Below are positions 7,991-59,298 of a stretch of 64,000 nt of DNA, one piece after another; position 1 is the first letter of the stretch; each line of letters starts with the position of its first letter. The position numbers and the translations under genes were made by a program. The notes below the pieces were generated by a model. It was not told where the DNA came from. It searched no databases and saw nothing but the letters and a program-made list of their open reading frames with translations. This DNA is from Gloeomargarita sp. SRBZ-1_bins_9 (GTDB taxonomy: Bacteria > Cyanobacteriota > Cyanobacteriia > Gloeomargaritales > Gloeomargaritaceae): the NCBI GenBank assembly GCA_039794565.1, contig JAUQVX010000002.1, forward strand, positions 192,126 through 256,125, in the 5' to 3' direction.

Positions 7991-8082
7991 GACAATCTGG
8001 GTGCACAACTATGCTGTCTTCGGGAAAAACAAAATAGGGGCAGCTCAACTGACTACCCCCTCTGGCTAAACCGATACTTAAC

Positions 8083-8280
8083 CTAGCTCAGCGCACTCGG
8101 ACCATGGTCGTAATCAATCCGAAACGTGGGCTGTACCTTCCCTTGAATGTGGCCGAAGTAACCAGGCAGTTGATGTACCCCGGCTTCCGCCGCCGTCCGA
8201 CCCAGCAGGCTTTGTTGCCGATTGCGAATCTGGGCCGTGCGCTGCACCATCAGTAACCGTGCCCGTTGTTGCGTATCCAT
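8083..8280 (-). CDS. Small conserved hypothetical protein
   Basis: A 65-residue soluble protein with a basic, glutamine-rich N-terminal half (RARLLMVQRTAQIRNRQQSL) and a C-terminal segment LPGYFGHIQGKVQPTFRIDYDHG. A strong AGGAGGGAC ribosome binding site sits 7-8 nt before the ATG. No functional family is recognised and there are no membrane segments. It is divergent from the DUF1825 gene, with a palindromic NtcA-type site in the shared upstream region. Confidence 0.65.
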   Translation of the reverse strand: MDTQQRARLLMVQRTAQIRNRQQSLLGRTAAEAGVHQLPGYFGHIQGKVQPTFRIDYDHGPSALS

Positions 8281-35556: not shown

Positions 35557-35860
35557 ATGACGAAATTAAAGCAATTAAAAACCCTCTGCCCGCACGTGAC
35601 CAGCCGAGAAGTTCCCCAAGTAATTTTGAGAGTACCAATCCTGCTGGGTGAGGACTCCGCGGTGCCGTTTTACCTCAGTTTTGGACCGCAACAACAATAG
35701 GTGGGTACCTCTAGCCTCTGACTTAAAGTTTCTGGGTACAACGCCCAGTCTACTGCCGCCAGAGTTTCGGTTCCCTCATGCGTTGGGTGTAGATCGCAAA
35801 ACATTATTGGCAGTCACCAACACCGCAGAAGAACCTCTGGATTTACTGTACCAAATTTAG
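35557..35860 (+). pseudogene. Small frameshifted hypothetical gene
   Basis: An ATG at 35557 opens MTKLKQLKTLCPHVTS and continues EVPQVILRVPILLG, SAVPFYLSFGPQQQ to a TAG at 35700. The next frame, open from 35648, carries protein-like sequence RWVPLASDLKFLG and FRFPHALGVDRKTLLAV to a TAG at 35860. A slip at CAACAACAA (35689-35697) would join them into about 100 residues. The region is less GC-rich than its surroundings. No family is recognised. It is the only gene-like content between 35473 and 35842. Confidence 0.35.
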
Positions 35861-42982: not shown

Positions 42983-43741
42983 ATGGCCGGGCACAGCAAG
43001 TGGGCCAACATCAAGCGGCAAAAGGCGCGGGTGGATGCCCTCAAAGGCCAAACCTTTGCTAAGCTTTCCCGGGAGATCATCGTGGCAGCGCGCCTGGGAC
43101 TCCCGGACCCTGCGGGCAATTTTCGGTTGCGCACGGCGATTGCTAAAGCCAAAGCCGCCGGCATGTCCCAGGAAAACATTGAGCGGGCCATTGCTAAGGG
43201 TGCCGGTCGCCTGGGTCCCGATACGGAAAACCTGGAATCCGTGCGCTACGAAGGCTATGCCCCCGGTGGTGTGGCCGTTTTGATTGAAGCCCTGACCGAC
43301 AACCGCAACCGGACAGCCGGCGAAATCCGGGCGGCCTTTAACAAGCACGGCGGCAATTTGGGGGAAACTGGCTGCGTCGGCTGGATGTTTACCCAGGTGG
43401 GCTGGATTCCCGTGACCGGCATCACCACAGAAGAAGACCTGCTGGCTGTAGCGTTAGAGGTAGGGGCTACCAGCTACGAGTGGGACGCTCAGACCCCAGC
43501 CCTGGTGACGGCGCCTGAGGACCTGGACCGGGTCGCAGCAGCAGTCCAAGCCAAGGGTTATGGCGTTGAGGGGGCGACGACCCGCTGGCAGCCCACCACG
43601 ACGGTGACCATCACCGACCCAGACCAAGCCCGCAAAGTTCTGCGCCTGCTCGATGTACTGGAGGATTTGGACGATGTACAGAGTGTGACGGCCAATTTTG
43701 AAATGGACGACGCCCTACTGGGGGCCACGATGGGACTTTGA
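42983..43741 (+). CDS. YebC/PmpR family regulatory protein
   Basis: A 252-residue protein starting MAGHSKWANIKRQKARVDA, the invariant YebC beginning, with AIAKAKAAGMSQENIERAI and YEGYAPGGVAVLIEALTDNRNRT. Members were described as transcriptional regulators, and recent work links several to relief of ribosome stalling at proline runs. Position 42983 is chosen because the frame upstream lacks homology. The pentapeptide gene starts 7 bp downstream. Confidence 0.93.
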   Translation: MAGHSKWANIKRQKARVDALKGQTFAKLSREIIVAARLGLPDPAGNFRLRTAIAKAKAAGMSQENIERAIAKGAGRLGPDTENLESVRYEGYAPGGVAVLIEALTDNRNRTAGEIRAAFNKHGGNLGETGCVGWMFTQVGWIPVTGITTEEDLLAVALEVGATSYEWDAQTPALVTAPEDLDRVAAAVQAKGYGVEGATTRWQPTTTVTITDPDQARKVLRLLDVLEDLDDVQSVTANFEMDDALLGATMGL

Positions 43742-43748
43742 ACCGGCC

Positions 43749-44963
43749 ATGGATGCCAACGCCTTACTTGCTCGCTATGCCGATGGGGAACGGGATTTCC
43801 GCCAGGTCAATCTGAGCGGCGCCGATTTATCGCTGGCCATCCTGCGAGACATCAACTTAAGTTGCGCCAAGTTAGCCGGCACTAGCCTCAATCAGGCCAA
43901 TTTAACCCGCGCCGATATGAGCCGGGCCATTCTCCGGGAAGCGGATTTGAGCCGAACGATTCTCCGGGAAGCCAACTTGATGTCGGCCAAGCTGGTGGGG
44001 GCCTATTTACACCAGGTGGACCTGCAGGAGGCCAATTTGAGCAAGGCCAAGCTCACGGAAGCGGATTTGGTGGGGGCCAATTTGCGGGGGGCCAAGCTGG
44101 TGGGGGCCAATCTCAGTCGGGCAGTGCTTATCGAAGCGGACCTGAGCGGTGCCGATTTGAGTGGAGCAGATTTAACCGGCGCTAATTTAAACGATGCCCG
44201 GTTGGTGGGGACGAATCTGGCGCGGGCGGATTTGACCCGGGCGGCCTTGCGCAACAGTGACCTGAGCCAGGCCAATTTTTTTGAAGCGGATTTAAGCCGG
44301 GCCGTTTTGACCGGTGCCAAGTTGGTGCGGGCGGGATTGAGTGACGCCATCTTGAGCGAAGCCAACCTAGGCAACGCTGACCTGACCGAAGCCCAGTGTA
44401 TCAATGCTGACTTAGGCCGGACCAATTTGCGGGGGGCCAACCTAACCGGTGCCAACTTAGGCGGAGCCATCCTGGAGCGGGTGGATTTGGGCCATGCCGA
44501 TTTGACGAGGGCGGATTTGACCGGGGCGGACTTGAGCGGAGTAGATTTACGTCGCACCAATCTCACGGGTGCCCAACTGCGGGGGGCCAGGCTTTGCCGG
44601 AGCAATTTAGAGCAGGCCACGCTTCAGGATGCCGACCTCACCGCCGCCGATTTAACCGATGCGCGCCTGATACGGGCAGGGATGCAGAGAGTGCAGCTGG
44701 CCCAGAGCAATCTAACGGGGGTAGATTTAACCGGCGCGATTTTGACCGAGGCTGACCTAAGGGGGGCTGTTTTGGTAGGGGCGATTCTCAATCAGGCGGA
44801 TTTGACCAACGCCAAGTTAGTAGCGGCCGACTTGACGGGGGCGTCTTTGTATGAGGTGCTGGTGCAGGGCGCCGATTTGACCCAGGCTTGTCTGGCCGAT
44901 GCCTATCTGGAGGCTACTAACCTGGCGGGGGCTTTGTTGACGGAAACAGTGCTACCGGGTTAA
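43749..44963 (+). CDS. Pentapeptide-repeat protein
   Basis: A 404-residue protein that is almost wholly A(D/N)LxX repeats, roughly 70 pentapeptides, from about residue 20 to the end; it starts MDANALLARYADGERDFRQV. The sequence predicts one long right-handed quadrilateral beta-helix. No signal peptide or membrane segment is present, so it is likely cytoplasmic. Such proteins are abundant in cyanobacteria and most have no known role. The repeated DNA (GCCGATTTGA-like units) is the reason for long shadow frames on the opposite strand. Confidence 0.9.
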   Translation: MDANALLARYADGERDFRQVNLSGADLSLAILRDINLSCAKLAGTSLNQANLTRADMSRAILREADLSRTILREANLMSAKLVGAYLHQVDLQEANLSKAKLTEADLVGANLRGAKLVGANLSRAVLIEADLSGADLSGADLTGANLNDARLVGTNLARADLTRAALRNSDLSQANFFEADLSRAVLTGAKLVRAGLSDAILSEANLGNADLTEAQCINADLGRTNLRGANLTGANLGGAILERVDLGHADLTRADLTGADLSGVDLRRTNLTGAQLRGARLCRSNLEQATLQDADLTAADLTDARLIRAGMQRVQLAQSNLTGVDLTGAILTEADLRGAVLVGAILNQADLTNAKLVAADLTGASLYEVLVQGADLTQACLADAYLEATNLAGALLTETVLPG

Positions 44964-47824: not shown

Positions 47825-48592
47825 ATGGCCTATCCCCCCTGGCTACACTGGTTAGCCACCTGCCCCAGCACCAACACCTGGGCGCGGCAATCCCTGGCCC
47901 ACTTGGCCCATGGGGACGTAGTGTGCACGCCACGACAAACCGCCGGACGGGGACGGGATGGCCGTCGCTGGTATGCCCCACCGGGGGTGCTGACCGCTTC
48001 TTTTGTCCTGCAACCGGTGACTGCCTCCCAAATCCCCTGGTTGAGCCTAGCAGCGGGTTTGGCGGTTATTTATGCGGTGGAGGATACGGTTTCCCTGGCA
48101 CCAGGTACTTTAGGGCTTAAGTGGCCGAACGATGTGGTGCTCCAGGGCCGGAAGTTAGCCGGGGTGCTCTGCGAAGCGTCCCTACCCTGGGCGGTGGTGG
48201 GTATTGGTCTCAACCGGGCGGTGGATTGGGCTAAGGTTTTGACGGACCCAACCAGTGGTCTGTCCCCCTCTCAGGTGGCGAGTCTGCTGGAAGTGACGCC
48301 CCACCCACCGGACGTGATCACCCTGCTGACCCGGTTACGGCGCTATCTCCTGGAAGCCCACAGTCTCATCCAGCAGGGCAAAGAAGGAAATTTATTGCCC
48401 CCATTGCGCCAGCGGGATGTGCTCGATGGCTGTCCCCTCACCATCCGTAGCGGGGAGACCACCATCAGCGGCATTGGATTAGGGCTAGATGACCAGGGGC
48501 GGTTACGGGTCCAAGGAGCCGACGGAACGTTGCATGCTTTCACCGCCGGCCATGTAGTGTGCTGGGAACCGTCACGTTTCGTCGGGAATTAA
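47825..48592 (+). CDS. birA: Biotin--[carboxylase] ligase
   Basis: A 255-residue single-domain ligase without a DNA-binding N-terminus. The substrate-binding loop is GRGRDGRRWYAPPGVLTASF, followed by LKWPNDVVLQGRKLAGVLCE with the catalytic lysine, and VVGIGLNRAV. It biotinylates carboxyl-carrier domains. It is convergent with the guanidine/urea carboxylase gene and overlaps its end by 21 bp; that carboxylase has its own biotinyl domain, a likely target besides acetyl-CoA carboxylase. Confidence 0.93.
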   Translation: MAYPPWLHWLATCPSTNTWARQSLAHLAHGDVVCTPRQTAGRGRDGRRWYAPPGVLTASFVLQPVTASQIPWLSLAAGLAVIYAVEDTVSLAPGTLGLKWPNDVVLQGRKLAGVLCEASLPWAVVGIGLNRAVDWAKVLTDPTSGLSPSQVASLLEVTPHPPDVITLLTRLRRYLLEAHSLIQQGKEGNLLPPLRQRDVLDGCPLTIRSGETTISGIGLGLDDQGRLRVQGADGTLHAFTAGHVVCWEPSRFVGN

Positions 48593-51500
48593 CGTCAACA
48601 CCGCCTGTCCTGCCGTCACCGGTTGCCCCGGTTGGCGCAGGATTTGGGCGACGGTTCCCCCACAGGGCGCTAAAACCTCAATTTCCGTTTTCATGGCTTC
48701 AATCACCGCCACCCTATCGCCCTGGTTGACCCGCGCTTGGGGTTGGACATGCACCCGCCAGACCATGCCGCTCACTTCTGTACACACGGCCACCCGTCCT
48801 GCGGGAATGTCGGTTTCCGCCGCCGCGTCCTCCACTAGGTCTACCGTCTCGTTGGTGCGGTCAAATTCCCCTGCTGCCACCCAGCGCTCCCGTTCAGCTT
48901 GAAAGGCCTGCTGCTGCCGGGTTTTGAAAGCCTGAATCTCGGCGGCATGCTGCTGCAAGAAGGCCAGGTAGTCCCGCAGACGAAACGTTTGTTCGTGGAT
49001 GTCCAGCTTAACCCGCCCGTAAATGACGTCCTCCCGATAGCGCAGCAACTCGTCGGCGGTGACCGGGAAAAAGCGAATCTGGTCGAAAAACCTTAGCAGC
49101 CAGGGGCGAGAAAAGTTGCTGTTGCGCCGGTAGCGGTTCCATACGGGTACGGTGCGGCCCACCAACTGATAGCCCCCCGGCCCCTCCATGCCGTAGATAC
49201 AGAGATAGGCCCCGCCAATCCCCACCGCATTCTCCGGCGTCCAGGTGCGGGCCGGGTTGTACTTGGTGGTCACCAGGCGATGGCGCGGGTCTAATGGCGT
49301 CGCCACCGGTGCCCCCAAATACACATCCCCCAACCCCAGCACCAAATAACTCGCCGCAAAGACGATGTCATAGACCTGCTGGAGGTCCGCCAGGCCGTTG
49401 ATGCGCCGGATGAACTCCAAATTGCTGGGGCACCAGGGGGCGTCGGCCCGCACCGATTGCCCGTATTTCTCAATGGCCAACTGAATCGCCGGGTCGTTCC
49501 AGGACAGGGGCAAATACACGATGCGCGTCGGCACCTCCAGGTCCTGCACGTTGGGTAACTCCCGCTCCGCCTGGGCCAGCAGGGACAACAGTTCCGTCCG
49601 GGGCAACTGCCGGTTGTCGTAATGCACTTGCAGTGAACGAATCCCCGGCGTCAGGTCAAGAATTCCCGGTATCCGTTGCGCTTGCAGCCAGGTCATCAGG
49701 GCCTGGACCCGAAACCGTAGGGTCAAATCCAGGGTCAAGGGGCCGTATTCAATCAGCAAGTACTTGTCCCCCGCCTGGCGGTAGGTGACTCCCACCGGAT
49801 GGGTCTCTGGGGTCTCCTGGCGCAGGATTGGGTCGCCCCCGACCGTCAGCGGTTGGGACCGGGGCCGGGGCTGCAACGTGGCCAGTTCCTCCTCCTGCTG
49901 CTGTTCCCAGGCCCGGGCTGTGGCCTCGTCAATAGGGACAAACCGCACTGTATCACCTGGTTTGAGTTGCCCGATTTTCCACAACTCCGCCTGCACGATG
50001 GTGGCCGGGCAAACAAATCCCCCCAGGCTCGGGCCGTCGCACCCCAGGATGATGGGCATATCGCCGGTAAAATCAATCGTGCCGATGGCGTAGGCGTTGT
50101 CGTGGATATTAGACGGGTGCAGTCCCGCTTCCCCCCCATCCGGTCTGGCCCAGGTGGGCTTGGGGCCGATCAGGCGAATCCCCGTGCGGTTGGAATTGTG
50201 ATGCACCACCCAGGCGTGGCTGAACAACAGGGCCATGTCGTCCGGGGTGAAAAAGTCGGGAGCGGCGTGGGGACCGACCATCACAGCAATCTCCCAGGTG
50301 TGGGTGTAGGTGGGGATAAGCGCTGGGGGTAACGCCTGGGGCACATCTTCCCCGAACCAGGGGGTCAAAGGCAGGACATCGCCCGTGCGCAAGGCCCGTC
50401 CCCCGTGCCCGCCCAATTGCCCCAGGGTAAAGGTGGATCGGCTCCCCAGGTACATCGGCACCGGCAATCCCCCCTGAATGGCGATATAGGTGCGGCAACC
50501 GGGGCCTTGGACGGCCTGAAGTTCCAGCACGCTCCCTGCCGGCACCACCACCGTCTGCCAATAGGGAACCTCCTGACCGTTTAACCGGGCGGGCATGTAG
50601 GCCCCCGTCAGACAAATCCGCGTGGGTGCGTTAAACCGCAGGGTCGGCCCCACCAGAGTGCACTCCAGCCCCGCCGCCTCCGGGGGATTCCCCAACAAAC
50701 GGTTACCCCAGCGAAAAGCCAGGTGGTCCATTGGTCCCGACGGCGGCACCCCCACGTCCCAATAGCCCAACCGTCCTGGGTAATCCTGCACGGTGGTCAG
50801 GGTCCCCGGCGTCAGGACGTCTATGGTTTGGGGGCGATAGACCACCTCCGCCAGCCAGCGGGTGTGCACCTCCCCCTGTTGCATCGCCGGTGTCCCCAGC
50901 ACCTGTTGCAGGTACTCGCAATTGGTGACGATGCCGGCTAAAGTGGTTTGCGCCAAAGCTGCCTGTAACCTGTGCAGGGCCTCGGTTCGGTTGGCTCCGT
51001 AGGCAATGGCTTTGGCCAGTAGGGGGTCATAGAAGGGCGTCACCTCCGTCCCCGTTTCCAGCCAATGGTCCCAACGAATCCCTAGCCCCAGGGTCACTTC
51101 CGTCAACACCCCCGCGCTGGGCTGGAAATTTTTGTGGGGGTCTTCGGCGTAGATACGAGCTTGGATGGCATGTCCCCGGGGGTTGGGGGTCCAGGTGTCG
51201 AAAAAACTCCGGTCCCCGGCCGCCAGACGCACCATCCACTCCACCAAATCCACCCCCCAGACCAGCTCCGTGACCCCGTGCTCCACCTGCAGGCGCGTGT
51301 TCACCTCCAGGAAATAGAACTGCGCCGTCTGCACGTCATAGATAAATTCCACCGTGCCTGCGGACTGGTACTGCACCGCTTCCCCCAACCGTTGGGCCGC
51401 CTGGGCCAAGGCTTGACGAACCGCCTCAGGTAATCCCGGCGCTGGGGTTTCTTCGATCACCTTCTGGTGGCGGCGTTGGGTGGAGCAGTCCCGTTCCCCC

Positions 51501-52168
51501 AGCGTCAGGACACGCCCCTGGCCATCCCCAAAAATCTGCACCTCCAGATGGCGCGCCCGGGGAATGTACTTTTCCAAAAACACCCCAGCGTCCCGGAAAT
51601 GGGCCTGGCTGAGCCGTTGCACCTGGTCGTAGGCCGCCGCCAGTTCCTCCGGGTTGTGGCAACAGCGCATCCCAATGCCCCCGCCGCCGGCGGTACTTTT
51701 AAGCATCACCGGGTAGCCGATGGCCGCCGCCGCCTCTTGCGCCTCCTGTAGATCCTTTAATAAAGACGTGCCAGGTACCAGGGGGATACCGCAGGCTTGG
51801 GCTAGGGAGCGGGCCACGTGCTTAAGACCGAATTGGTGCACCTGCTCGGGTTTGGGGCCGATGAAAACGATCCCCTGTCGGGTGCAGGCTTCGGCAAAAT
51901 CCGCATTTTCACTGAGGAACCCATACCCCGGGTGAATCCCCTGGGCGCCGCTGGCCTGGGCGATGGCCAAAATCCGCTCCCCCTGCAGATAGCTCTCACT
52001 GGCCAGGGTGCCCCCTAGGGGATAGGCTTCGGTGGCCATTTGCACTGGGAGACTATGGCGGTCCGGCTCAGAATAAACGGCAACGCTGGCTATCCCCAAC
52101 CGGTTGAGCGTACGGATGAGGCGACAGGCGATCTCCCCCCGGTTAGCCACCAAAACCTTGCGCAACAC
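48572..52168 (-). CDS. Biotin-dependent guanidine (urea-type) carboxylase
   Basis: A 1,198-residue multidomain enzyme. Residues 1-450 are biotin carboxylase (VLVANRGEIACRLIRTL, the ATP-grasp loop STAGGGGIGMR). About 450-790 is the KipA/AHS2 carboxyltransferase half (VLTPGTLTTVQDYPGRLG, GPMDHLAFRWGN), about 830-1080 the KipI/AHS1 half, and the C-terminus a biotinyl domain with VIEAMKTEI (biotinyl Lys about 1160). Proteins of this architecture are called urea carboxylase, but those behind a guanidine-I riboswitch and DUF1989 genes carboxylate guanidine (Schneider et al. and Sinn et al. showed this group prefers guanidine). The GTG start overlaps the upstream stop (TAGTG). Confidence 0.9.
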   Translation of the reverse strand: MLRKVLVANRGEIACRLIRTLNRLGIASVAVYSEPDRHSLPVQMATEAYPLGGTLASESYLQGERILAIAQASGAQGIHPGYGFLSENADFAEACTRQGIVFIGPKPEQVHQFGLKHVARSLAQACGIPLVPGTSLLKDLQEAQEAAAAIGYPVMLKSTAGGGGIGMRCCHNPEELAAAYDQVQRLSQAHFRDAGVFLEKYIPRARHLEVQIFGDGQGRVLTLGERDCSTQRRHQKVIEETPAPGLPEAVRQALAQAAQRLGEAVQYQSAGTVEFIYDVQTAQFYFLEVNTRLQVEHGVTELVWGVDLVEWMVRLAAGDRSFFDTWTPNPRGHAIQARIYAEDPHKNFQPSAGVLTEVTLGLGIRWDHWLETGTEVTPFYDPLLAKAIAYGANRTEALHRLQAALAQTTLAGIVTNCEYLQQVLGTPAMQQGEVHTRWLAEVVYRPQTIDVLTPGTLTTVQDYPGRLGYWDVGVPPSGPMDHLAFRWGNRLLGNPPEAAGLECTLVGPTLRFNAPTRICLTGAYMPARLNGQEVPYWQTVVVPAGSVLELQAVQGPGCRTYIAIQGGLPVPMYLGSRSTFTLGQLGGHGGRALRTGDVLPLTPWFGEDVPQALPPALIPTYTHTWEIAVMVGPHAAPDFFTPDDMALLFSHAWVVHHNSNRTGIRLIGPKPTWARPDGGEAGLHPSNIHDNAYAIGTIDFTGDMPIILGCDGPSLGGFVCPATIVQAELWKIGQLKPGDTVRFVPIDEATARAWEQQQEEELATLQPRPRSQPLTVGGDPILRQETPETHPVGVTYRQAGDKYLLIEYGPLTLDLTLRFRVQALMTWLQAQRIPGILDLTPGIRSLQVHYDNRQLPRTELLSLLAQAERELPNVQDLEVPTRIVYLPLSWNDPAIQLAIEKYGQSVRADAPWCPSNLEFIRRINGLADLQQVYDIVFAASYLVLGLGDVYLGAPVATPLDPRHRLVTTKYNPARTWTPENAVGIGGAYLCIYGMEGPGGYQLVGRTVPVWNRYRRNSNFSRPWLLRFFDQIRFFPVTADELLRYREDVIYGRVKLDIHEQTFRLRDYLAFLQQHAAEIQAFKTRQQQAFQAERERWVAAGEFDRTNETVDLVEDAAAETDIPAGRVAVCTEVSGMVWRVHVQPQARVNQGDRVAVIEAMKTEIEVLAPCGGTVAQILRQPGQPVTAGQAVLTLIPDET

Positions 52169-52809
52169 TAGGCCGCGTCCCAAATCAACAGCCGAATAGG
52201 GGTGGGGTTATAGGCGTTACAGGGGTTGTTGATCTGGGGGCAGTTGGAAATCAGCACCAACACGTCCATCTCCGCCCGCAGGTCCACATATTTCCCCGGC
52301 GCCGAAATCCCATCTACGATTTCCAGACGCCCGTCCGCCGCCACCGGCACATTCATAAAGAAATTGATATTGCTCACCAGGTCCCGCTTGTGCAGGCCGT
52401 ACTTGCTTAGCTCCAGCAGGTAGTTCTCCACGCAGGCGTGCAGGTGCTTTTTGTGCAGGCCATAGCGCACCGAATTGCTCTCCATGCTGCAGGCCCCCCC
52501 CAGGGTGTCGTGACGACCGCAGGTATCGGCCACCACCGTCATCAATACATTCCCCAGGTTAGAAAGCAGTTGTGTACCGGCAGTGATAAAGATATTCCCC
52601 TGGCGCACAATGGTATCAGGGGCACTGTAGCGCTCCGAGGGGTCGTGGGCGTTGTAGATCAACGTATCCACCGCCTGGTTCCCCTCCAGGTCCACGATGC
52701 GCAGGATTTGCCCCTTGGTCACCACCTTGGACCAGGGTTGTCGGGCCGGCAATTGGTAGTCGTAAACCGCTTGGGCCGGGTCTAACACACGCTCCGTTGT
52801 CGCCACCAT
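52168..52809 (-). CDS. DUF1989 protein, carboxyguanidine deiminase subunit (UAAP2-type)
   Basis: A 213-residue protein with TKGQILRIVDLEGNQAVDTLIYNA, the cysteine-containing ADTCGRHDTLGGACS, NFFMNVPV and YVDLRAEMDVLVLISNCPQINNPCN. These are the DUF1989 (urea-amidolyase-associated protein 2) features. In characterised systems two DUF1989 paralogues form the heteromeric carboxyguanidine deiminase that releases ammonia and yields allophanate. It starts after AAGGAGG and sits between its partner and the carboxylase, whose start overlaps its stop. Confidence 0.88.
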   Translation of the reverse strand: MVATTERVLDPAQAVYDYQLPARQPWSKVVTKGQILRIVDLEGNQAVDTLIYNAHDPSERYSAPDTIVRQGNIFITAGTQLLSNLGNVLMTVVADTCGRHDTLGGACSMESNSVRYGLHKKHLHACVENYLLELSKYGLHKRDLVSNINFFMNVPVAADGRLEIVDGISAPGKYVDLRAEMDVLVLISNCPQINNPCNAYNPTPIRLLIWDAA

Positions 52810-52838
52810 CGTTACCAACCTCCTTGAGCAGACCGAGT

Positions 52839-53612
52839 TTACATCCCGTAGGTAGGCATGAGGGGTCGTTGCGCCCACCAGGTGTCCGTATTGATAAACG
52901 CCCGCTTCACCTCCTCATTGGCCGTGCGGCACAGGTCCTCCGGTCCCGGCGCGGGGGAACGCCACACCGTCAACTGCACCGGCGGCGGGTTGTAGGTGGT
53001 TTCCGGGTGCAGTACATGGGGGCAATTGGCCACTACTACTAACACATTCATTTCCGCCCGCAGGTCCACGTAACTCCCCGGTTTAGCCGCCGTCCCATCG
53101 TAGTGCAGCTCACCGTTGGGGCCTACCGTCACCCGGCTAAACAAATTCACACAGGGCATCAAATCCCGACGGGTCATCCCCCACTTGCCCAGCGCCCGCA
53201 AAAACTGGTCCCGGGCGTTATGGAAATCCCGCCGACCCCATTTGTCATCGCCGCCTTCGCCGTACTTGGCGCGGTTACTCTCCGGCGTACTCCAGCCGCA
53301 AATCAGGTCATGGCCATTGGACGTATCCTCCGTGAGGGAAAACAACACCCGGCCCATATCCGAATACAGCACCATGCCCTTGCGCAAAAAGGCATTGAAC
53401 TGAATCTTGGCCGTATCCGCCACATTCAAGCGCTCCATGGTCCGGTCTGCGTTGTAGGCAATCAGGGAAACCCCATGGGACCCACCCAAATCCGTGATGC
53501 GCAGCGTTTGCCAACGGGGGATAATGCCATGCCAGTAGGCGCCGCCAGGCAGCTTTTCCGACCAGACCACCAACTCCGGCGCCAGCGGGGGTGTTTCGAC
53601 CGTTGCCACCAT
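52839..53612 (-). CDS. DUF1989 protein, carboxyguanidine deiminase subunit (UAAP1-type)
   Basis: A 257-residue paralogue of the next gene. It has GAYWHGIIPRWQTLRITDLGG, STPESNRAKYGEGGDDKWGR, CVNLFSRVTV and YVDLRAEMNVLVVVANCPHVL, the UAAP1 signature. It would pair with the UAAP2-type protein as carboxyguanidine deiminase. AGGAGG followed by the ATG at 53612 is better spaced than the in-frame GTG at 53621. It is the first gene behind the guanidine-I riboswitch. Confidence 0.88.
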   Translation of the reverse strand: MVATVETPPLAPELVVWSEKLPGGAYWHGIIPRWQTLRITDLGGSHGVSLIAYNADRTMERLNVADTAKIQFNAFLRKGMVLYSDMGRVLFSLTEDTSNGHDLICGWSTPESNRAKYGEGGDDKWGRRDFHNARDQFLRALGKWGMTRRDLMPCVNLFSRVTVGPNGELHYDGTAAKPGSYVDLRAEMNVLVVVANCPHVLHPETTYNPPPVQLTVWRSPAPGPEDLCRTANEEVKRAFINTDTWWAQRPLMPTYGM

Positions 53613-53640
53613 ACCTGTCACCTCCTAAACCAAACAACGA

Positions 53641-53800
53641 AGCCCAGGAGTTCCGCCATCCAGCCTGTATCCAGACCTTCAGCACGTCCTCCCGGGCTTT
53701 TATCCCGCCGTGTGACCGCTACCGATTGCGGTAACGGCTTGCTTCTCTCGGACCAGTCACGGCTCTGGCCGCCGGAACCCTAGAAGCTCTCCTGCCTTAT
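53641..53800 (-). promoter_or_regulatory. Guanidine-I (ykkC) riboswitch
   Basis: The minus strand carries the conserved ykkC blocks in order: CTAGGGTTCCGG (about 53784-53773), CTGGTCCGAGAG (about 53756-53745), and ACGGCGGGATAAAAGCCCGG followed by GAGG (about 53710-53688). A second element CTCCTGGGCT (53650-53641) can pair over 10 bp, with one G-U, with AGCCCGGGAG (53698-53689) inside the aptamer, and is followed by TTCGTTGTTT. That suggests a helix competing with the ligand-bound fold, i.e. relief of termination when guanidine binds. It lies directly upstream of the DUF1989 genes and carboxylase. Confidence 0.92.
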
Positions 53801-53848: not shown

Positions 53849-53865
53849 TTTTTACAAAAATTTAC
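53847..53865 (-). repeat. Direct-repeat element GTAAA-N5-GTAAA, copy 1
   Basis: The minus strand reads GTAAATTTTTGTAAAAAGT, directly upstream of the NtcA-like box of the riboswitch operon and overlapping the Rieske stop codon. A near-identical copy is at 55056-55075 in front of the Rieske gene. The 10-bp periodicity of GTAAA would place two half-sites on one helix face. Confidence 0.5.
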
Positions 53866-54944
53866 CCAGCGATCTGGGCTGGGGGATGACCGTGCAGATA
53901 AGCCAGCAGGAGTTTTTGCTGGTGGAGAATGCGAGCCTCCAGGGGGTGGACCGGTCCGGGTTGGTAAGCGCCGCTGGCGTAGCCCCGTTGCACCGATTCG
54001 GCAATCGCCACATCTTCGCCCACAAACGCTGCCAGTTCCGCCAGCACCTCCGCCAGAGGCGCGTCCGGTGATCCGTAGATGTCCGTCACCACTTGACACC
54101 GGTCTACTGCCACCGGGTCAATGCGCAGGGAAATGAACATGCCATCCGGCAGGGCCAGCAGGTGCCAATTGGGAAACACGCCGAAGGTGTAGAAATGGGT
54201 TTGGTTCTCGAGGGGCAAATCGCGACGCACCCGGCGGCGGGCCAACCAGGTCGGGGGCACCGGCGTCACCAGGGCATTGACATAGCTGCCGAAGCAATGC
54301 CGGTAATGGCGCACCGGCCCCTGCAACCGATGCAACGTCCGAGCATGGGCCACCGCCACGTGGTAATCGCAAAGGGTGTTGTCGTGATAAACCTTCCAGT
54401 TGCAGGCTACCGGGCGGGTATGGTGGTGTAACCAGCGCCATTCCCCCTGGGCATAGCCGGCCAAGACCTGGGCCATGGGGGCTAAATACACCGGCAGGGG
54501 GGGCACCTGGGGCTGGAAACTGACAAACAACAACTGCTGCCAGACCGCTACCTGCACCGGTCGCAGGGGGTAGTCTTGGGCGCAAAAATCACTGCCCCAT
54601 CCCTTCTGCTGCGCCGTCGCCCGCAATTGCCCCTGCAGGTCATAGACCCAGGCGTGGTAAGGACACACCAGCCGCTTCCTCGGGAAAACCCCCGGCTCCG
54701 GACATAGTTCCATTCCCCGGTGGGGACACAGGTTGTAAAACCCCCGCAGTTGGCCCCCTTCATCCCGGATGACCAGCAGACTCCGCCCGGCCAAGGAAGT
54801 CGCCCACACCGTCCCTGGTGTTGCCACCCGTTCGGCTGGCCCCAGGTACAACCAGGTCTGATGAAAAATGCGGGCCTGCTCCAGGGGTATCCATACCGGG
54901 TCGGTGTAATGTTCCGCCTGAAGTAAAAAAAACTCTCGCTCCAT
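53862..54944 (-). CDS. Rieske-type non-heme iron oxygenase, substrate unknown
   Basis: A 360-residue oxygenase alpha subunit. The Rieske 2Fe-2S ligands are Cys73 and His75 (NLCPHRGMEL) and Cys94 and His97 (LVCPYHAWVYD). The mononuclear iron site has DYHVAVAH (His195, His200) after NWKVYHDN. It resembles the group acting on small quaternary or N-methylated compounds (choline monooxygenase, betaine and stachydrine demethylases), where N-demethylation is the chemistry. No reductase or ferredoxin gene is adjacent. Location upstream of the riboswitch operon and opposite the importer suggests a guanidino substrate. M1 at 54944 is chosen because the region upstream to 55016 is promoter-like. Confidence 0.85.
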   Translation of the reverse strand: MEREFFLLQAEHYTDPVWIPLEQARIFHQTWLYLGPAERVATPGTVWATSLAGRSLLVIRDEGGQLRGFYNLCPHRGMELCPEPGVFPRKRLVCPYHAWVYDLQGQLRATAQQKGWGSDFCAQDYPLRPVQVAVWQQLLFVSFQPQVPPLPVYLAPMAQVLAGYAQGEWRWLHHHTRPVACNWKVYHDNTLCDYHVAVAHARTLHRLQGPVRHYRHCFGSYVNALVTPVPPTWLARRRVRRDLPLENQTHFYTFGVFPNWHLLALPDGMFISLRIDPVAVDRCQVVTDIYGSPDAPLAEVLAELAAFVGEDVAIAESVQRGYASGAYQPGPVHPLEARILHQQKLLLAYLHGHPPAQIAG

Positions 54945-55014: not shown

Positions 55015-55057
55015 ATCCTGTCGGCTCATCTCCCCGGAAAATGGTATTCCCAATAAC
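55015..55057 (-). promoter_or_regulatory. NtcA-like promoter of the Rieske gene
   Basis: On the minus strand GTTATTGGGAATAC (55057-55044) is GTA-N8-TAC with one mismatch, followed after 23 nt by CAGGAT (55020-55015), one base from TAN3T. It is preceded by copy 2 of the GTAAA direct-repeat element, the same order as at the riboswitch operon. Together with the rest of the region 54945-55243, which holds no gene, this forms the divergent control region. Confidence 0.35.
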
Positions 55058-55075
55058 TTTTTTACAAAAATTTAC
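55056..55075 (-). repeat. Direct-repeat element GTAAA-N5-GTAAA, copy 2
   Basis: The minus strand reads GTAAATTTTTGTAAAAAAGT, identical to copy 1 except for one extra A. It adjoins the NtcA-like box of the Rieske gene. Sharing of such an AT-rich 19-nt element between two promoters 1.2 kb apart suggests a common regulator. Confidence 0.5.
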
Positions 55076-55132: not shown

Positions 55133-55176
55133 GTATTTTTAGATACTGTTTTTGGCGAAATGAAATTCGCTATGGT
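55133..55176 (+). promoter_or_regulatory. NtcA-activated-type promoter of the importer operon
   Basis: GTATTTTTAGATAC (55133-55146) is an exact GTA-N8-TAC. After 24 nt comes TATGGT (55171-55176), a TAN3T -10 box, giving the standard class II NtcA layout. The transcript would begin near 55183, about 60 nt before the ATG of the binding-protein gene. Confidence 0.65.
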
Positions 55177-55218: not shown

Positions 55219-55243
55219 TTAGGACGTGCAGGTTTGTATCGCC

Positions 55244-56257
55244 ATGGGACGAAAGTCATCTCAGCTTGCTGGGATTTTGTTTGCCTTGACCTTGGTTTTA
55301 GCGGTTAGTTGTGGCCTTGGCAATAGGCCCTCTGATGCGGTGGTGGTGCGGCTGGGATTTAGCGCCTGGCCCGGTTGGTTTCCCTGGCAGGTGGCCCAGG
55401 AAAAAGGGATTTTTCAACAGCATGATGTGCAGGTGGAGTTGCAGTGGTTTGACAGCTACACGGATTCGCTAAACGCGCTGAAAGCTGAACAGTTGGATGC
55501 CAATTCCCAAACCTTGAATGACACCATTAGTGCCGTAGCTGGTGGTGCGGATCAGGTGGTGGTGTTGGTGAACGACAATTCCACTGGCAATGACCAGATC
55601 ATTGTGCGGCAAGGGATCGATACCCTGGCGGATTTAAAGGGTAAACGCTTGGCGGCGGAAGAGGGAACCGTGAGTCACTTTTTCCTATACCTGGCCCTTG
55701 AGCGAGCGGGGTTGACGCCAGCAGATATTACGTTTGTACCCCTGGAAACCGGAAAAGCGGCGGCGGCCTTTGCGGCGGGTCAAGTGGACGGAGTGGCGGT
55801 TTTTGCCCCCTTTACCACCCAAGCCCTCAAGCGACCGGGAAGTAAAGTGCTCACCAGTTCAAAGGATTTTCCGGGGGCGATTTCAGACCATTTGGTGTTC
55901 ACCCGCCGCTTTGTGGAGCAACATCCTGACCAGGTGCAGAAGGTGGTGGATGCCTGGTTTGACACGATCCGCTACATCCAGGACCACCCCGACGAGGCAT
56001 TGACCATCATGGCCCAACGGGCGGGGGTTTCGGTGGCGGAGTACCAACAATATGCAGCGGGGACCCGCATTTTTACGGCCCAGGAAAACGTGGCGGCGTT
56101 TCAACCAGGCCAAGATCTAACCTCCCTGCCGTTTGCCACCCAGAAAGTCAGTGCTTTTTTGGTGCAAATGGGCTTTGTGCAAACGCAACCGGATGGGAGC
56201 CGGTTATTGGACGGGCGGTTTGTACAGGCGCATGTCGCTAGGGCACAGGGGCTATGA
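55244..56257 (+). CDS. ABC importer substrate-binding lipoprotein (urea-carboxylase-associated)
   Basis: A 337-residue protein with a signal peptide and lipobox-like LVLAVSCG. The fold is NMT1/TauA type: VRLGFSAWPGWFPWQVAQEKG, QLDANSQTLNDTISAVAGG, LKGKRLAAEEGTVSHFFL. It fits the TIGR03427-like periplasmic protein found near urea/guanidine carboxylase genes. Probable ligand is guanidine or a related guanidino compound, by context. A GTG at 55226 is an alternative start. The stop overlaps the permease ATG (ATGA). Confidence 0.87.
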   Translation: MGRKSSQLAGILFALTLVLAVSCGLGNRPSDAVVVRLGFSAWPGWFPWQVAQEKGIFQQHDVQVELQWFDSYTDSLNALKAEQLDANSQTLNDTISAVAGGADQVVVLVNDNSTGNDQIIVRQGIDTLADLKGKRLAAEEGTVSHFFLYLALERAGLTPADITFVPLETGKAAAAFAAGQVDGVAVFAPFTTQALKRPGSKVLTSSKDFPGAISDHLVFTRRFVEQHPDQVQKVVDAWFDTIRYIQDHPDEALTIMAQRAGVSVAEYQQYAAGTRIFTAQENVAAFQPGQDLTSLPFATQKVSAFLVQMGFVQTQPDGSRLLDGRFVQAHVARAQGL

Positions 56258-57093
56258 CGACTGACCCGACTCCCCCTAAGCAAACGCCGGCCTCTTCCCT
56301 GCGGCCATCGGTGTTCTGGCGTTTGGCAGAGGACATTCCCGCACCCCTGTACCGGCGGTTGATGCTGGTGTCGGTGGTGACCCCCCTGGTGCTGTGGTGG
56401 TTGTTGACGACCTTTGGGCAAGTCGACCCCAAGTTTTTGCCGGCGCCGGGGCAGGTAGTTACCGCGGCCGGGCGGCTGGGGGCATCAGGGGAGTTGTGGC
56501 AGGACACCTGGGCCAGTTTACAACGGGTGGGGATGGGGTTTGGCTTGTCGGTGCTGGTGGCGGTGCCCCTGGGGGTATTGATGGGGTGTTTCCAGAGTCT
56601 GCGGGCGCTGGGGGAACCTCTGTTTGGCTTAATGCGTTACATGCCGGCGCCGGCGTTTATTCCCCTGTTAATTCTCTACCTAGGCATTGACGAAGCACCC
56701 AAAATTGCCCTGATTTTTATCGGCACCTTTTTCTACAACGCTTTGATGGTAATGGACACGGTGAAATTTGTCCCCAAGGAACTGATTGAGGCGACCTATA
56801 TGTTGGGGGGCAATCGCTTCAATACGGTGGTGCGAGTGATTTTTCCCCATGTGTTGCCGGGGATTTTGGATGCCTGTCGGATCAATTTTGCGTCGGCCTG
56901 GCAGTTGGTGATCGTGGCGGAACTGGTGGCGGCAACCGAAGGCTTGGGACGGCGGATTAGTTTGGCGGGCAGGTTTCTGCGGACGGATGAAATTTTTGTG
57001 GGCTTGATAGTGATTGGTTTGATTGGGTTGGGGTTGGATTTATTGTTTCAGTATTTGGTGCGGGTGACCTGTCGGTGGGCCCATCCCGAATGA
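56254..57093 (+). CDS. ABC importer permease (urea-carboxylase-associated)
   Basis: A 279-residue permease with six membrane helices. The cytoplasmic coupling loop EATYMLGGNRFNTVVRVIFP HVLPG is split here for length; its EAA-x3-G-like pattern is that of the TauC/SsuC/NrtB group. N-terminal residues 1-40 are cytoplasmic and proline-rich. It is coupled to the binding protein by a 4-bp overlap and precedes the ATPase by 32 bp. Substrate inferred from operon context only. Confidence 0.88.
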   Translation: MTTDPTPPKQTPASSLRPSVFWRLAEDIPAPLYRRLMLVSVVTPLVLWWLLTTFGQVDPKFLPAPGQVVTAAGRLGASGELWQDTWASLQRVGMGFGLSVLVAVPLGVLMGCFQSLRALGEPLFGLMRYMPAPAFIPLLILYLGIDEAPKIALIFIGTFFYNALMVMDTVKFVPKELIEATYMLGGNRFNTVVRVIFPHVLPGILDACRINFASAWQLVIVAELVAATEGLGRRISLAGRFLRTDEIFVGLIVIGLIGLGLDLLFQYLVRVTCRWAHPE

Positions 57094-57125
57094 AGGTTTT
57101 TTGTTGTTTTTGCGGAGGTCGCGGT

Positions 57126-57923
57126 ATGTTTCTGCAGGTGCGTCAGTTGACCAAAGTGTTCTCTACTCGGCAAGGGCCGTTGTTGGTGCTGGAGGATATT
57201 AATTTTTCCGTAGCCCAGGGGGAATTTGTTTGTGCGGTGGGGGCGTCCGGTTCGGGAAAGTCCACGCTGCTGCGGCAAATTGCCGGGTTGGACCAGCCGA
57301 CGCGGGGCGGGGTGTGGATTGACGGCCAGCGGGTGACGGGTCCGGGAGCCGACCGGGGGATGGTGTTTCAGCATTACACGCTCTACCCTTGGATGACGGT
57401 GCAACAAAACGTGGAGTTCGGCCTGAAGTTACAGGGGGTGCCCCAGCGGGAACGGCGGGAACGGGCGCGCTATTACCTGCAAGTGGTGGGATTGAGCGCC
57501 TTTGCCCAGGCCCTCCCCCGGCAGTTGTCCGGTGGCATGAAACAGCGGGTGGCCATTGCCCGGGCACTGGCGGCGGAACCCCGGTTGCTCCTGTTGGATG
57601 AACCGTTCGGGGCGCTGGATTTGCACACCCGGGAGATGATGCACGAGTTCCTGATGGACCTGTGGCAGCGCACGGGCTTGACGGTGTTCATGATCACCCA
57701 CGATGTGGAGGAGGCGGTGTTTTTGGCGACGCGAATTTTGGCCCTGAGTGCGCGTCCTGGTCGCATCGTGCGGGAGATGACGGTGGAGTTGCCGGACCGT
57801 CGCCAGGGGGTGATGGCCATCAAACGGCATCCCCACTTCCATGACTACCGGGACGAACTAGTGATGCTCCTGCGGCAGACGGGTCAGGCGGCCCACCAGC
57901 GGTCCATGGCCCTGGCGGCCTGA
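57126..57923 (+). CDS. ABC importer ATPase (urea-carboxylase-associated)
   Basis: A 265-residue ATPase with Walker A GASGSGKST, Q-loop GMVFQHYTLYPWMTV, signature LSGGMKQR, Walker B LLLLDEPFGALD and switch ITHDVEEAV. It belongs to the TauB/SsuB/NrtD group. A GGAGG precedes the ATG at 57126; an upstream open stretch to 57075 only overlaps the permease. The allophanate hydrolase gene begins 1 bp after its stop, joining import to catabolism in one operon. Confidence 0.92.
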   Translation: MFLQVRQLTKVFSTRQGPLLVLEDINFSVAQGEFVCAVGASGSGKSTLLRQIAGLDQPTRGGVWIDGQRVTGPGADRGMVFQHYTLYPWMTVQQNVEFGLKLQGVPQRERRERARYYLQVVGLSAFAQALPRQLSGGMKQRVAIARALAAEPRLLLLDEPFGALDLHTREMMHEFLMDLWQRTGLTVFMITHDVEEAVFLATRILALSARPGRIVREMTVELPDRRQGVMAIKRHPHFHDYRDELVMLLRQTGQAAHQRSMALAA

Positions 57924-57924
57924 C

Positions 57925-59298
57925 ATGGGGGTCCGGTTTGACCTGGGTTCCCTGCGCCGGGCCTATCTAACGGGTGAACTCACGCCGACCCAGGTGGTGG
58001 AGGAGGTATACGCCCGCATTGCCTATTACAGCGACCCGGCGGTGTGGATTTACCTGGCCCCCCAACCGGAAACCTTGGCGCGGGCGGCCCACCTAGAAAC
58101 GCAAAACCCGGCGGATTTTCCCCTGTACGGGATTCCCTTTGCCATCAAGGACAACATTGATTGGGCAGGTGTACCCACAACGGCCGGTTGTCCGGGTTTT
58201 GCCTATACCCCATCCGTATCTGCTCCGGTGGTGGCCAGTTTGCTGGCAGCCGGCGCCATCCCTATAGGCAAAACTAACCTGGACCAGTTCGCTACGGGGT
58301 TGGTGGGGACCCGGTCGCCCTACGGAATTTGCCGCAATCCCTGGCATCCCGACTACATTCCCGGTGGGTCGAGTGCGGGGTCGGCGGTGGCGGTGGCGGC
58401 GGGGCTGGTGAGCTTTAGTTTGGGGACGGATACGGCAGGTTCGGGGCGGGTGCCGGCGGCGTTGAACGGGATTGTCGGTCTCAAGCCTACGCGGGGTTAT
58501 GTCAGTACGCGGGGTGTGGTGCCGGCGGTGCGCAGTTTGGATTGTGTGTCCATCTTTGCCCAGAGGGTGACAGACGCCCAGCAAGTGTTGCAGGTGATAG
58601 CCGGGTTTGACCCAGCAGACCCTTTCTCCCGGCAACCATCGCCCCCACCGGCCTTGGCCACAACAACCCTGCGTCTGGGGGTTCCCCCGCCGGATCAACT
58701 GGACTTTGGGGGGGACCCAGCGGCAGCCCAAAATTACCAGGCGGCCATCCAGCGGTTTGTGACTCTTGGCGCTCAGGCGGTGACCGTAGATATTCAGCCG
58801 TTTCTCGCAGCCGGGGAATTGCTCTACGAGGGGGCCTGGTTGGCCGAACGCACGGCAGCCGTCGGCGAGTTTCTCAAACAGGACCAAGCGGGGATCGACC
58901 CCACCGTGCGCCAGATCATCCTGGCAGGGCAGGGCATCAGCGGGATGCAGGTGTTCCGGGATACATACCGTTTGCAGGCCCTGCGGCGGGAAACAGAAAC
59001 CCTGTGGCGGGAGATGGATATGTTGGTGTTGCCGACCATCGGCACAGCCTATCGGGTGCAGGAGGTGCTGGCCCAGCCCGTGGAACTGAACCGTCGTCTG
59101 GGGCGCTACACCAACTTTGTGAATTTGCTGGATCTGTGCGCATTGGCCTTGCCCAGTGGTTTTCAGACCGATGGGTTGCCTACCGGCATTACGGTGATGG
59201 CCCCGGCCTGGCGGGATGAATGGTTATGTCAGTGGGGGGCCCGTTATCAGGCGTTAGGGGAGGAGACAGACCGATGGACGATGCCTGGGTGCGGCTAG
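57925..59298 (+). CDS. atzF: Allophanate hydrolase, amidase domain
   Basis: A 457-residue amidase-signature enzyme. The catalytic Ser-Ser-Lys set is Lys75 (FAIKDNIDW), Ser149 or Ser150 (PGGSSAGSAVAVAAG) and nucleophile Ser173 (DTAGSGRVPAAL). DGLPTGITVMAPAW near the end is typical of AtzF/DUR1 proteins. It releases ammonia from allophanate. Full AtzF has about 600 residues with a C-terminal decarboxylase domain; here the frame stops just after the amidase domain and the rest is a decayed remnant (59299-59688). Whether the shortened enzyme works in cells is unknown. Confidence 0.9.
   Translation: MGVRFDLGSLRRAYLTGELTPTQVVEEVYARIAYYSDPAVWIYLAPQPETLARAAHLETQNPADFPLYGIPFAIKDNIDWAGVPTTAGCPGFAYTPSVSAPVVASLLAAGAIPIGKTNLDQFATGLVGTRSPYGICRNPWHPDYIPGGSSAGSAVAVAAGLVSFSLGTDTAGSGRVPAALNGIVGLKPTRGYVSTRGVVPAVRSLDCVSIFAQRVTDAQQVLQVIAGFDPADPFSRQPSPPPALATTTLRLGVPPPDQLDFGGDPAAAQNYQAAIQRFVTLGAQAVTVDIQPFLAAGELLYEGAWLAERTAAVGEFLKQDQAGIDPTVRQIILAGQGISGMQVFRDTYRLQALRRETETLWREMDMLVLPTIGTAYRVQEVLAQPVELNRRLGRYTNFVNLLDLCALALPSGFQTDGLPTGITVMAPAWRDEWLCQWGARYQALGEETDRWTMPGCG

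Follow-up and report, generated by a model that had tools for sequence, protein, structure and literature searches.

A Rieske oxygenase gene recurrent in cyanobacterial guanidine loci may encode a methylguanidine demethylase

Introduction

Why does a gene for a Rieske non-heme-iron oxygenase sit in the middle of a locus for guanidine import and degradation, when congeners keep the same locus without it? We address this question for a 64,000-nt stretch of the genome of Gloeomargarita sp. SRBZ-1_bins_9 (contig JAUQVX010000002.1, positions 192,126 to 256,125 of the forward strand), which we refer to as the window. Two published systems frame the problem. In Vreelandella, the 2-oxoglutarate (2-OG) oxygenase MgdH and the hypothetical protein MgdL, both encoded in a guanidine-carboxylase operon, demethylate methylguanidine (Sinn et al., PMC12508155); the lyase MgdL uses D49 and R51, located in a modelled β-barrel, and the Guanidine-I riboswitch of this organism senses guanidine, not methylguanidine (PMC12508155). 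In most Synechococcus/Cyanobium that carry a guanidinase cluster, a putative Rieske gene, CK_00002251, lies downstream of that cluster (Dore et al. 2023, PMC10119275); the authors suggested the use of Fe and assigned this gene no enzymatic role.

Results

A Rieske gene between two parts of a guanidine locus

The gene that the original prediction had placed at 53862-54944, without giving its strand, is real and complete: it runs on the minus strand from an ATG at 54944 to 53862, within a maximal open reading frame that begins at 55016, and the plus strand of the same interval holds several stops. Its 360-residue translation confirms the residues claimed for it, that is, the CxH...CxxH motif of the Rieske [2Fe-2S] cluster (C73/H75 and C94/H97) and the iron-site stretch DYHVAVAH (D193-H200). 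The latter supplies two ligands of a 2-His-1-carboxylate mononuclear iron site (H195, H200, and D311), the third of which, D311, aligns with the ED motif of CntA, and neither set of ligands varies across the 21 orthologues aligned. Pfam recognizes a Rieske domain (PF00355, E=1.6e-15) and a Ring_hydroxyl_A domain (PF00848, E=2.9e-21), and the closest named relative, from Gloeomargarita sp. SKYG116, is 76% identical and lies in the same locus.

The neighborhood is as had been claimed, with the gene lying between an importer and a riboswitch operon. Upstream of it, divergently transcribed from the plus strand, are the genes of an ABC importer, encoding a substrate-binding protein of the NitT/TauT type (55226-56257, alternative start 55244; PF13379, TIGR01728), a permease (56254-57093; PF00528), and an ATPase (57075-57923; PF00005), followed by an AtzF-type allophanate hydrolase (57925-59298; TIGR02713, 581.4 bits, cut-off 511.05). 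Downstream, on the same minus strand as the Rieske gene, a Guanidine-I riboswitch aptamer (53687-53794; RF00442, 84.3 bits against a gathering threshold of 63, E=1.4e-13) heads an operon for the two DUF1989 proteins UAAP1 (52839-53621; TIGR03425, 294.8 bits, cut-off 205.95) and UAAP2 (52168-52878; TIGR03424, 354.6 bits, cut-off 284.7), the predicted subunits of a carboxyguanidine deiminase, and for a urea/guanidine carboxylase (48572-52183; TIGR02712, 1843.8 bits, cut-off 1303.85). With carboxylase, UAAP1, UAAP2, and allophanate hydrolase all above their NCBIfam cut-offs, under a guanidine riboswitch, the locus is that of a guanidine carboxylase; we read the carboxylase as acting on guanidine because of the riboswitch and of published work. 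A biotin--protein ligase encoded on the plus strand (birA, 47825-48592; TIGR00121, 117.5 bits, cut-off 83.1) likely biotinylates it. No reductase gene was found in the window's guanidine locus. Elsewhere, the window contains a 6S RNA gene (35650-35834; RF00013, 72.6 bits) and a long pentapeptide-repeat-like open reading frame (43698-44963).

A repeated element flanks the Rieske gene

The gene had also been credited with a promoter-like region of its own, for which we now find support in a 17-nt element, GTAAATTTTTGTAAAAA, that has only two exact copies in the genome of 2.22 Mb, where 0.01 copies would be expected in the window, and that flanks the gene on both sides. Both copies are on the minus strand: one (55059-55075) lies 115 nt 5' of the Rieske start, and the other (53849-53865) overlaps the Rieske stop codon, ~55 nt before the aptamer. 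The element is likewise present twice in congeners that carry the Rieske gene, with one change in the upstream copy, and once in congeners without the gene, in each case about as far ahead of the aptamer. Because the copy near the aptamer persists in the latter, the element probably serves the riboswitch operon as promoter or operator and has been duplicated in front of the Rieske gene, which may have been gained together with a copy of the element or lost by recombination between the two copies. The divergent promoter region further contains an NtcA-type site, GTA-N8-TAC (55133-55146), at the same aligned position in a related locus (L001); as 4.2 such sites are expected by chance per window, this site is no more than suggestive, and only its conservation counts.

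The Rieske gene accompanies both guanidine pathways in cyanobacteria

We surveyed the genomic context of the gene in 319 cyanobacterial genomes, defining its orthologous clade by an identity of 38% or more. Orthologues are present in 37 of these genomes and form one clade with a support of 100/100 that excludes every relative from outside the cyanobacteria as well as the remaining Rieske proteins of cyanobacteria. A guanidine-degrading pathway is encoded in 36 of the 37 genomes with the Rieske gene, compared to 147 of the 282 without it (p=7e-9, uncorrected for kinship). Across all 319 genomes, Ni-guanidinase (131 genomes) and UAAP1, which marks the carboxylase route (53 genomes), exclude each other almost completely, with only one genome having both, and the Rieske gene occurs with either: 30 of its genomes have the guanidinase, 6 have UAAP1, and the remaining one, which is 68% complete, has neither. 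Of the 37 genomes, 32 have a Guanidine-I riboswitch under strict filters. The proposed link to guanidine thus gains strong support at the level of gene order, where 33 of the 37 orthologues lie beside guanidine importer genes; one sits at a contig end, and three (in G103, G144, and G213) are unlinked, with no guanidine gene within reach. Close orthologues in unrelated loci would have refuted the original prediction; with the distribution found here, the survey did not refute it.

Three arrangements recur: (i) the Rieske gene with the carboxylase and UAAP genes, as in the window, L001, L018, and L130; (ii) guanidinase, hypA, hypB, and importer genes together with the Rieske gene, as in Leptothoe, Nodosilinea P-1105, and picocyanobacteria; and (iii) a Nodosilinea type, in which riboswitch, GS-III, importer, and Rieske gene follow each other and the guanidinase operon lies elsewhere with its own riboswitch. 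In arrangements (ii) and (iii), the Rieske gene is codirectional with the ATPase gene that precedes it, the spacing ranging mostly from an overlap of 7 nt to a gap of 27 nt, and the riboswitch leads the operon that contains it. A riboswitch 3' of the Rieske gene, as first described, is thus true of the window, but in most other genomes the riboswitch stands at the head of the Rieske operon. In three congeners (G016, G035, and G049), the order carboxylase-UAAP2-UAAP1-riboswitch-importer-atzF is kept without the Rieske gene, in agreement with the earlier statement that no standard step of guanidine degradation needs this enzyme.

The occurrence of the gene with both alternative pathways suggests a reaction ahead of guanidine, and the otherwise intact locus of the congeners marks this reaction as accessory. 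One could also imagine that the enzyme oxidizes guanidine itself, as detoxification or as a side route, since it is linked to and probably coregulated with guanidine genes and shares its operon with a GS-type ligase in some lineages. We consider this quite improbable: every near-complete genome with the Rieske gene already encodes a full guanidine-degrading pathway, and the congeners manage without the enzyme.

Several other features of these loci deserve mention. In operons of the Nodosilinea type, the Guanidine-I riboswitch is followed first by the gene for the type III glutamine-synthetase-like ligase (TIGR03105, 591 bits; L002, 5444-6805), which is also present in many guanidinase operons. 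The orphan Rieske genes of G103 and G144 each adjoin an N-methyltransferase gene of the NNMT/PNMT/TEMT type (L122, 10879-11649, and L123, 6748-7515). One run of genes in G151 (L131, 8510-13497) combines a UAAP2-like gene (60% identity) with an importer of the amino-acid type and a Rieske gene that does not belong to the clade. Finally, a picocyanobacterial guanidinase locus has a Glutamine-II riboswitch (L119, 2857-2918) ~0.8 kb before its Guanidine-I riboswitch.

An oxygenase fold with an altered bridge

The AlphaFold2 model of the protein (pLDDT 92.3) contains the whole oxygenase fold. Its nearest structural relatives are CntA (Z 37.1, root mean square deviation 2.3 over 330 residues) and stachydrine demethylase (Z 35.8), just ahead of the nearly tied aromatic dioxygenases (Z 34-35), and CntA is also the best sequence match of a profile of the clade (E 7e-47). 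CntA and stachydrine demethylase oxidize small cations, and the enzyme type that had been proposed from relatives demethylating such compounds is therefore supported. A saxitoxin-type identity is ruled out, as the saxitoxin Rieske enzymes score only ~21.5 and match in sequence over the Rieske domain only. So is identity with MgdH, since the protein does not have a 2-OG/Fe(II) dioxygenase fold and could at most work like it; no close MgdH was found in cyanobacteria, where the best match reaches 41% and none is near the guanidine loci examined.

In Rieske oxygenases, the position three residues before the first iron-binding histidine is normally occupied by a bridging Asp or Glu. This residue is Cys192 in the window protein and in the filamentous lineages, and Asp in picocyanobacteria; the adjacent Asp193 is invariant, such that the picocyanobacterial proteins read Asp-Asp, and the outgroup relatives that we inspected retain Glu or Asp. 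Replacement of the corresponding Glu205 of CntA (E205D, E205Q) abolishes its activity (PMC7948474), which implies that electron transfer must run differently in Cys192 members of the clade, where electrons perhaps pass through Asp193. A second departure concerns the residue that characterizes group V (Tyr203 in CntA; aromatic in Va and Asn in Vb), which is Thr190 here and Ser or Gly in two orphan sequences. Judged by its sequence against the criteria of PMC7948474, the protein falls outside regular group V.

These features bear on two further explanations. The unusual cysteine, the lack of a reductase gene in the locus, and the published suggestion, which goes no further, of Fe as a cofactor of the guanidine system (PMC10119275) would fit an iron-sulphur accessory or redox protein rather than an oxygenase, a role hinted at by Dore et al.; with the ligands of both metal centers invariant in the 21 aligned orthologues and the entire oxygenase fold present in the model, we regard this as very improbable. 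The other explanation, a demethylase of betaine, choline, or carnitine that occurs in guanidine loci by chance, draws on the nearest folds, which oxidize quaternary ammonium compounds, and on the best NCBIfam match, glycine betaine monooxygenase GbcA (NF058607). Yet the GbcA score of 112.8 bits is far below the cut-off of 670, which together with the context survey led us to reject a betaine-locus identity, Thr190 replaces the aromatic residue or Asn of group V, and the guanidine linkage recurs across several families and both pathway types, making an activity unrelated to guanidine improbable.

A neighbor related to an mgdH-mgdL-type operon

A gene for an HRI1-family protein (PF16815, match at threshold) with an invariant D-x-R motif lies next to the Rieske gene in three cyanobacterial families: it is present in genomes of the Nodosilinea type, in G149, and at the carboxylase-type loci L018 and L130. 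The G149 copy (L125, around 8038-8214) has an in-frame TGA and may be decaying. Such genes are present in 14 of 36 genomes with the Rieske gene, compared to 4 of 44 without it (p=0.002), and within one genus (g82) they accompany all nine Rieske genes and none of the three genomes that lack one; none was detected in the window's genome or in picocyanobacteria. Among 229 gammaproteobacterial genomes, the HRI1-like profile matches in four. In one of these (L140), the homologue comes immediately after genes for a 2-OG oxygenase and a guanidine carboxylase with UAAPs, which is the published mgdH-mgdL layout, and its product matches the cyanobacterial proteins with E values between 2e-17 and 1e-7 among the better pairs. 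In Zavarzinia (L137), a homologue is located beside substrate-binding proteins and two 2-OG enzymes, the latter being 57-61% identical to the 2-OG oxygenase of L140. Based on operon layout, the D-x-R motif, and homology to the L140 protein rather than on the sequence of MgdL itself, we consider the HRI1-like protein a candidate counterpart of MgdL, and its presence lends indirect but concrete support to the Rieske enzyme being a guanidine-releasing demethylase.

The family is not specific to a methylguanidine task, as lone HRI1-like genes occur beside housekeeping genes in G124, G066, G151, and G272. Our prediction that genomes with an HRI1-like gene and no Rieske gene would have an adjoining MgdH failed, with three such genes beside housekeeping genes and one, in G077, elsewhere. 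The G077 cluster (L163, 2600-16000) contains two other Rieske genes, two creatininase-family-like genes, a GS-III ligase, importer parts, and HRI1-like, biuret-hydrolase, and SDR genes; this gene content gives it the look of a separate pathway, of the guanidino or creatinine type, and a similar gene set is found in a gammaproteobacterium (L139). Searches with the HRI1-like protein gave no match in the plasmid collection and nothing useful in NCBIfam or the PDB, and its AlphaFold model has a mean pLDDT of 58, too low to show a β-barrel.

The identity of this neighbor also matters for the size of the substrate. By hydroxylating the carbon next to a guanidino nitrogen, the Rieske enzyme could free guanidine from a larger compound, such as dimethylguanidine, guanidinoacetate, or creatine- or arginine-derived compounds. 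The genomic context fits this equally well, the L018 genes for a MetX-like hydrolase, an SDR, and a biuret-hydrolase homologue that adjoin the Rieske gene would be superfluous for methylguanidine alone, and plant homoarginine-6-hydroxylases free guanidine from arginine-type compounds (PMC11018352). These extra genes are absent from most loci, though, and an MgdL-type neighbor indicates N-(hydroxymethyl)guanidine, so that we view a larger substrate as a doubtful, second-line possibility.

Discussion

The recurrent placement of the Rieske gene among genes for guanidine import, sensing, and degradation, in otherwise different cyanobacteria, suggests that its product probably converts methylguanidine, or a close relative, to guanidine. 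We put the probability at roughly 0.55 that it is a monooxygenase acting one step upstream of guanidine degradation, with methylguanidine as the predicted substrate and guanidine and formaldehyde as products. That the enzyme is a guanidine-releasing oxygenase of some kind, all predicted substrates taken together, we hold with considerably more confidence. The fuller proposal seems evenly balanced to us, namely, that it is an N-dealkylase of methylguanidine or another N-alkyl guanidine that arose independently of MgdH, with a rewired electron path, and that it is a standard guanidine accessory of cyanobacteria, including the picocyanobacteria of the ocean.

In the methylguanidine model, the ABC importer would take up an N-substituted guanidine, most likely methylguanidine, and the Rieske enzyme would hydroxylate its N-methyl carbon to give N-(hydroxymethyl)guanidine. 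As there is no reductase gene in the locus, a housekeeping ferredoxin may serve as electron donor. The intermediate would fall apart into guanidine and formaldehyde, either spontaneously or, in some lineages, with the help of the adjacent HRI1-family protein as a putative lyase. The guanidine would turn on the Guanidine-I riboswitch—which, if it behaves like that of Vreelandella, would read the Rieske product—and would be consumed by the carboxylase/allophanate route here and by Ni-guanidinase in most other cyanobacteria. The Rieske enzyme would thus take, without being homologous to it, the place that the 2-oxoglutarate methylguanidine hydroxylase MgdH has in Vreelandella. Several observations count against this model: (i) no HRI1-like gene was detected in the window's genome or in picocyanobacteria, and elsewhere such genes also stand alone beside housekeeping genes; (ii) three orthologues are unlinked; (iii) Cys192 takes the place of the bridging carboxylate and Thr190 that of the group V substrate residue; and (iv) the locus has no reductase gene, and the Guanidine-I class of Vreelandella is blind to methylguanidine.

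If the model is correct, many cyanobacteria with guanidine riboswitches would have a natural source of guanidine, methylguanidine demethylation would have a second, unrelated chemistry, and a gene carried by most guanidine-using marine Synechococcus/Cyanobium would have a function. The absent bridging carboxylate also makes the clade a test case for the movement of electrons between subunits of Rieske oxygenases.

Compared to MgdH/MgdL of Vreelandella boliviensis (PMC12508155), the cyanobacterial system likewise places an extra oxygenase in an importer-containing guanidine locus under Guanidine-I control and, in several lineages, next to a D-x-R protein of the HRI1 type homologous to that of L140. 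The differences are that the oxygenase is a Rieske and not a 2-OG/Fe(II) enzyme, that in the window its gene lies upstream of the riboswitch and the genome does not have a lyase homologue, and that demethylation is predicted here from genes. With CntA of group V (PMC7948474), the protein shares a near-full-length fold, the Rieske and mononuclear iron ligands, and a sequence match over the full length, but identity is only ~24%, Glu205 and Tyr203 are replaced by Cys192 and Thr190, and the window has no adjoining gene for a CntB-type reductase. Stachydrine demethylase (Stc2) is similar in fold and in acting on a small cationic N-methyl substrate type, and differs in sequence (24% identity), in gene context, and in the Asn of group Vb, which is Thr in the window protein. 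The saxitoxin-pathway Rieske hydroxylases SxtT and GxtA act on guanidinium compounds and share the Rieske oxygenase fold and a cyanobacterial pathway; their match is much weaker.

The closest precedent in cyanobacteria is CK_00002251, which very probably corresponds to the picocyanobacterial members of the Rieske clade; these show ~37-43% identity and are encoded directly behind the importer in gdmH-hypA-hypB-ABC operons. The work that described it (PMC10119275) includes neither carboxylase-type loci nor a lyase-like neighbor, and we found no functional report in the open-access literature that links a Rieske protein with a guanidine riboswitch or methylguanidine with cyanobacteria. Against this background, four things appear to be new: the linkage across both pathways, the presence and absence of the gene within a genus, the hint of a lyase, and the change at the bridging position.
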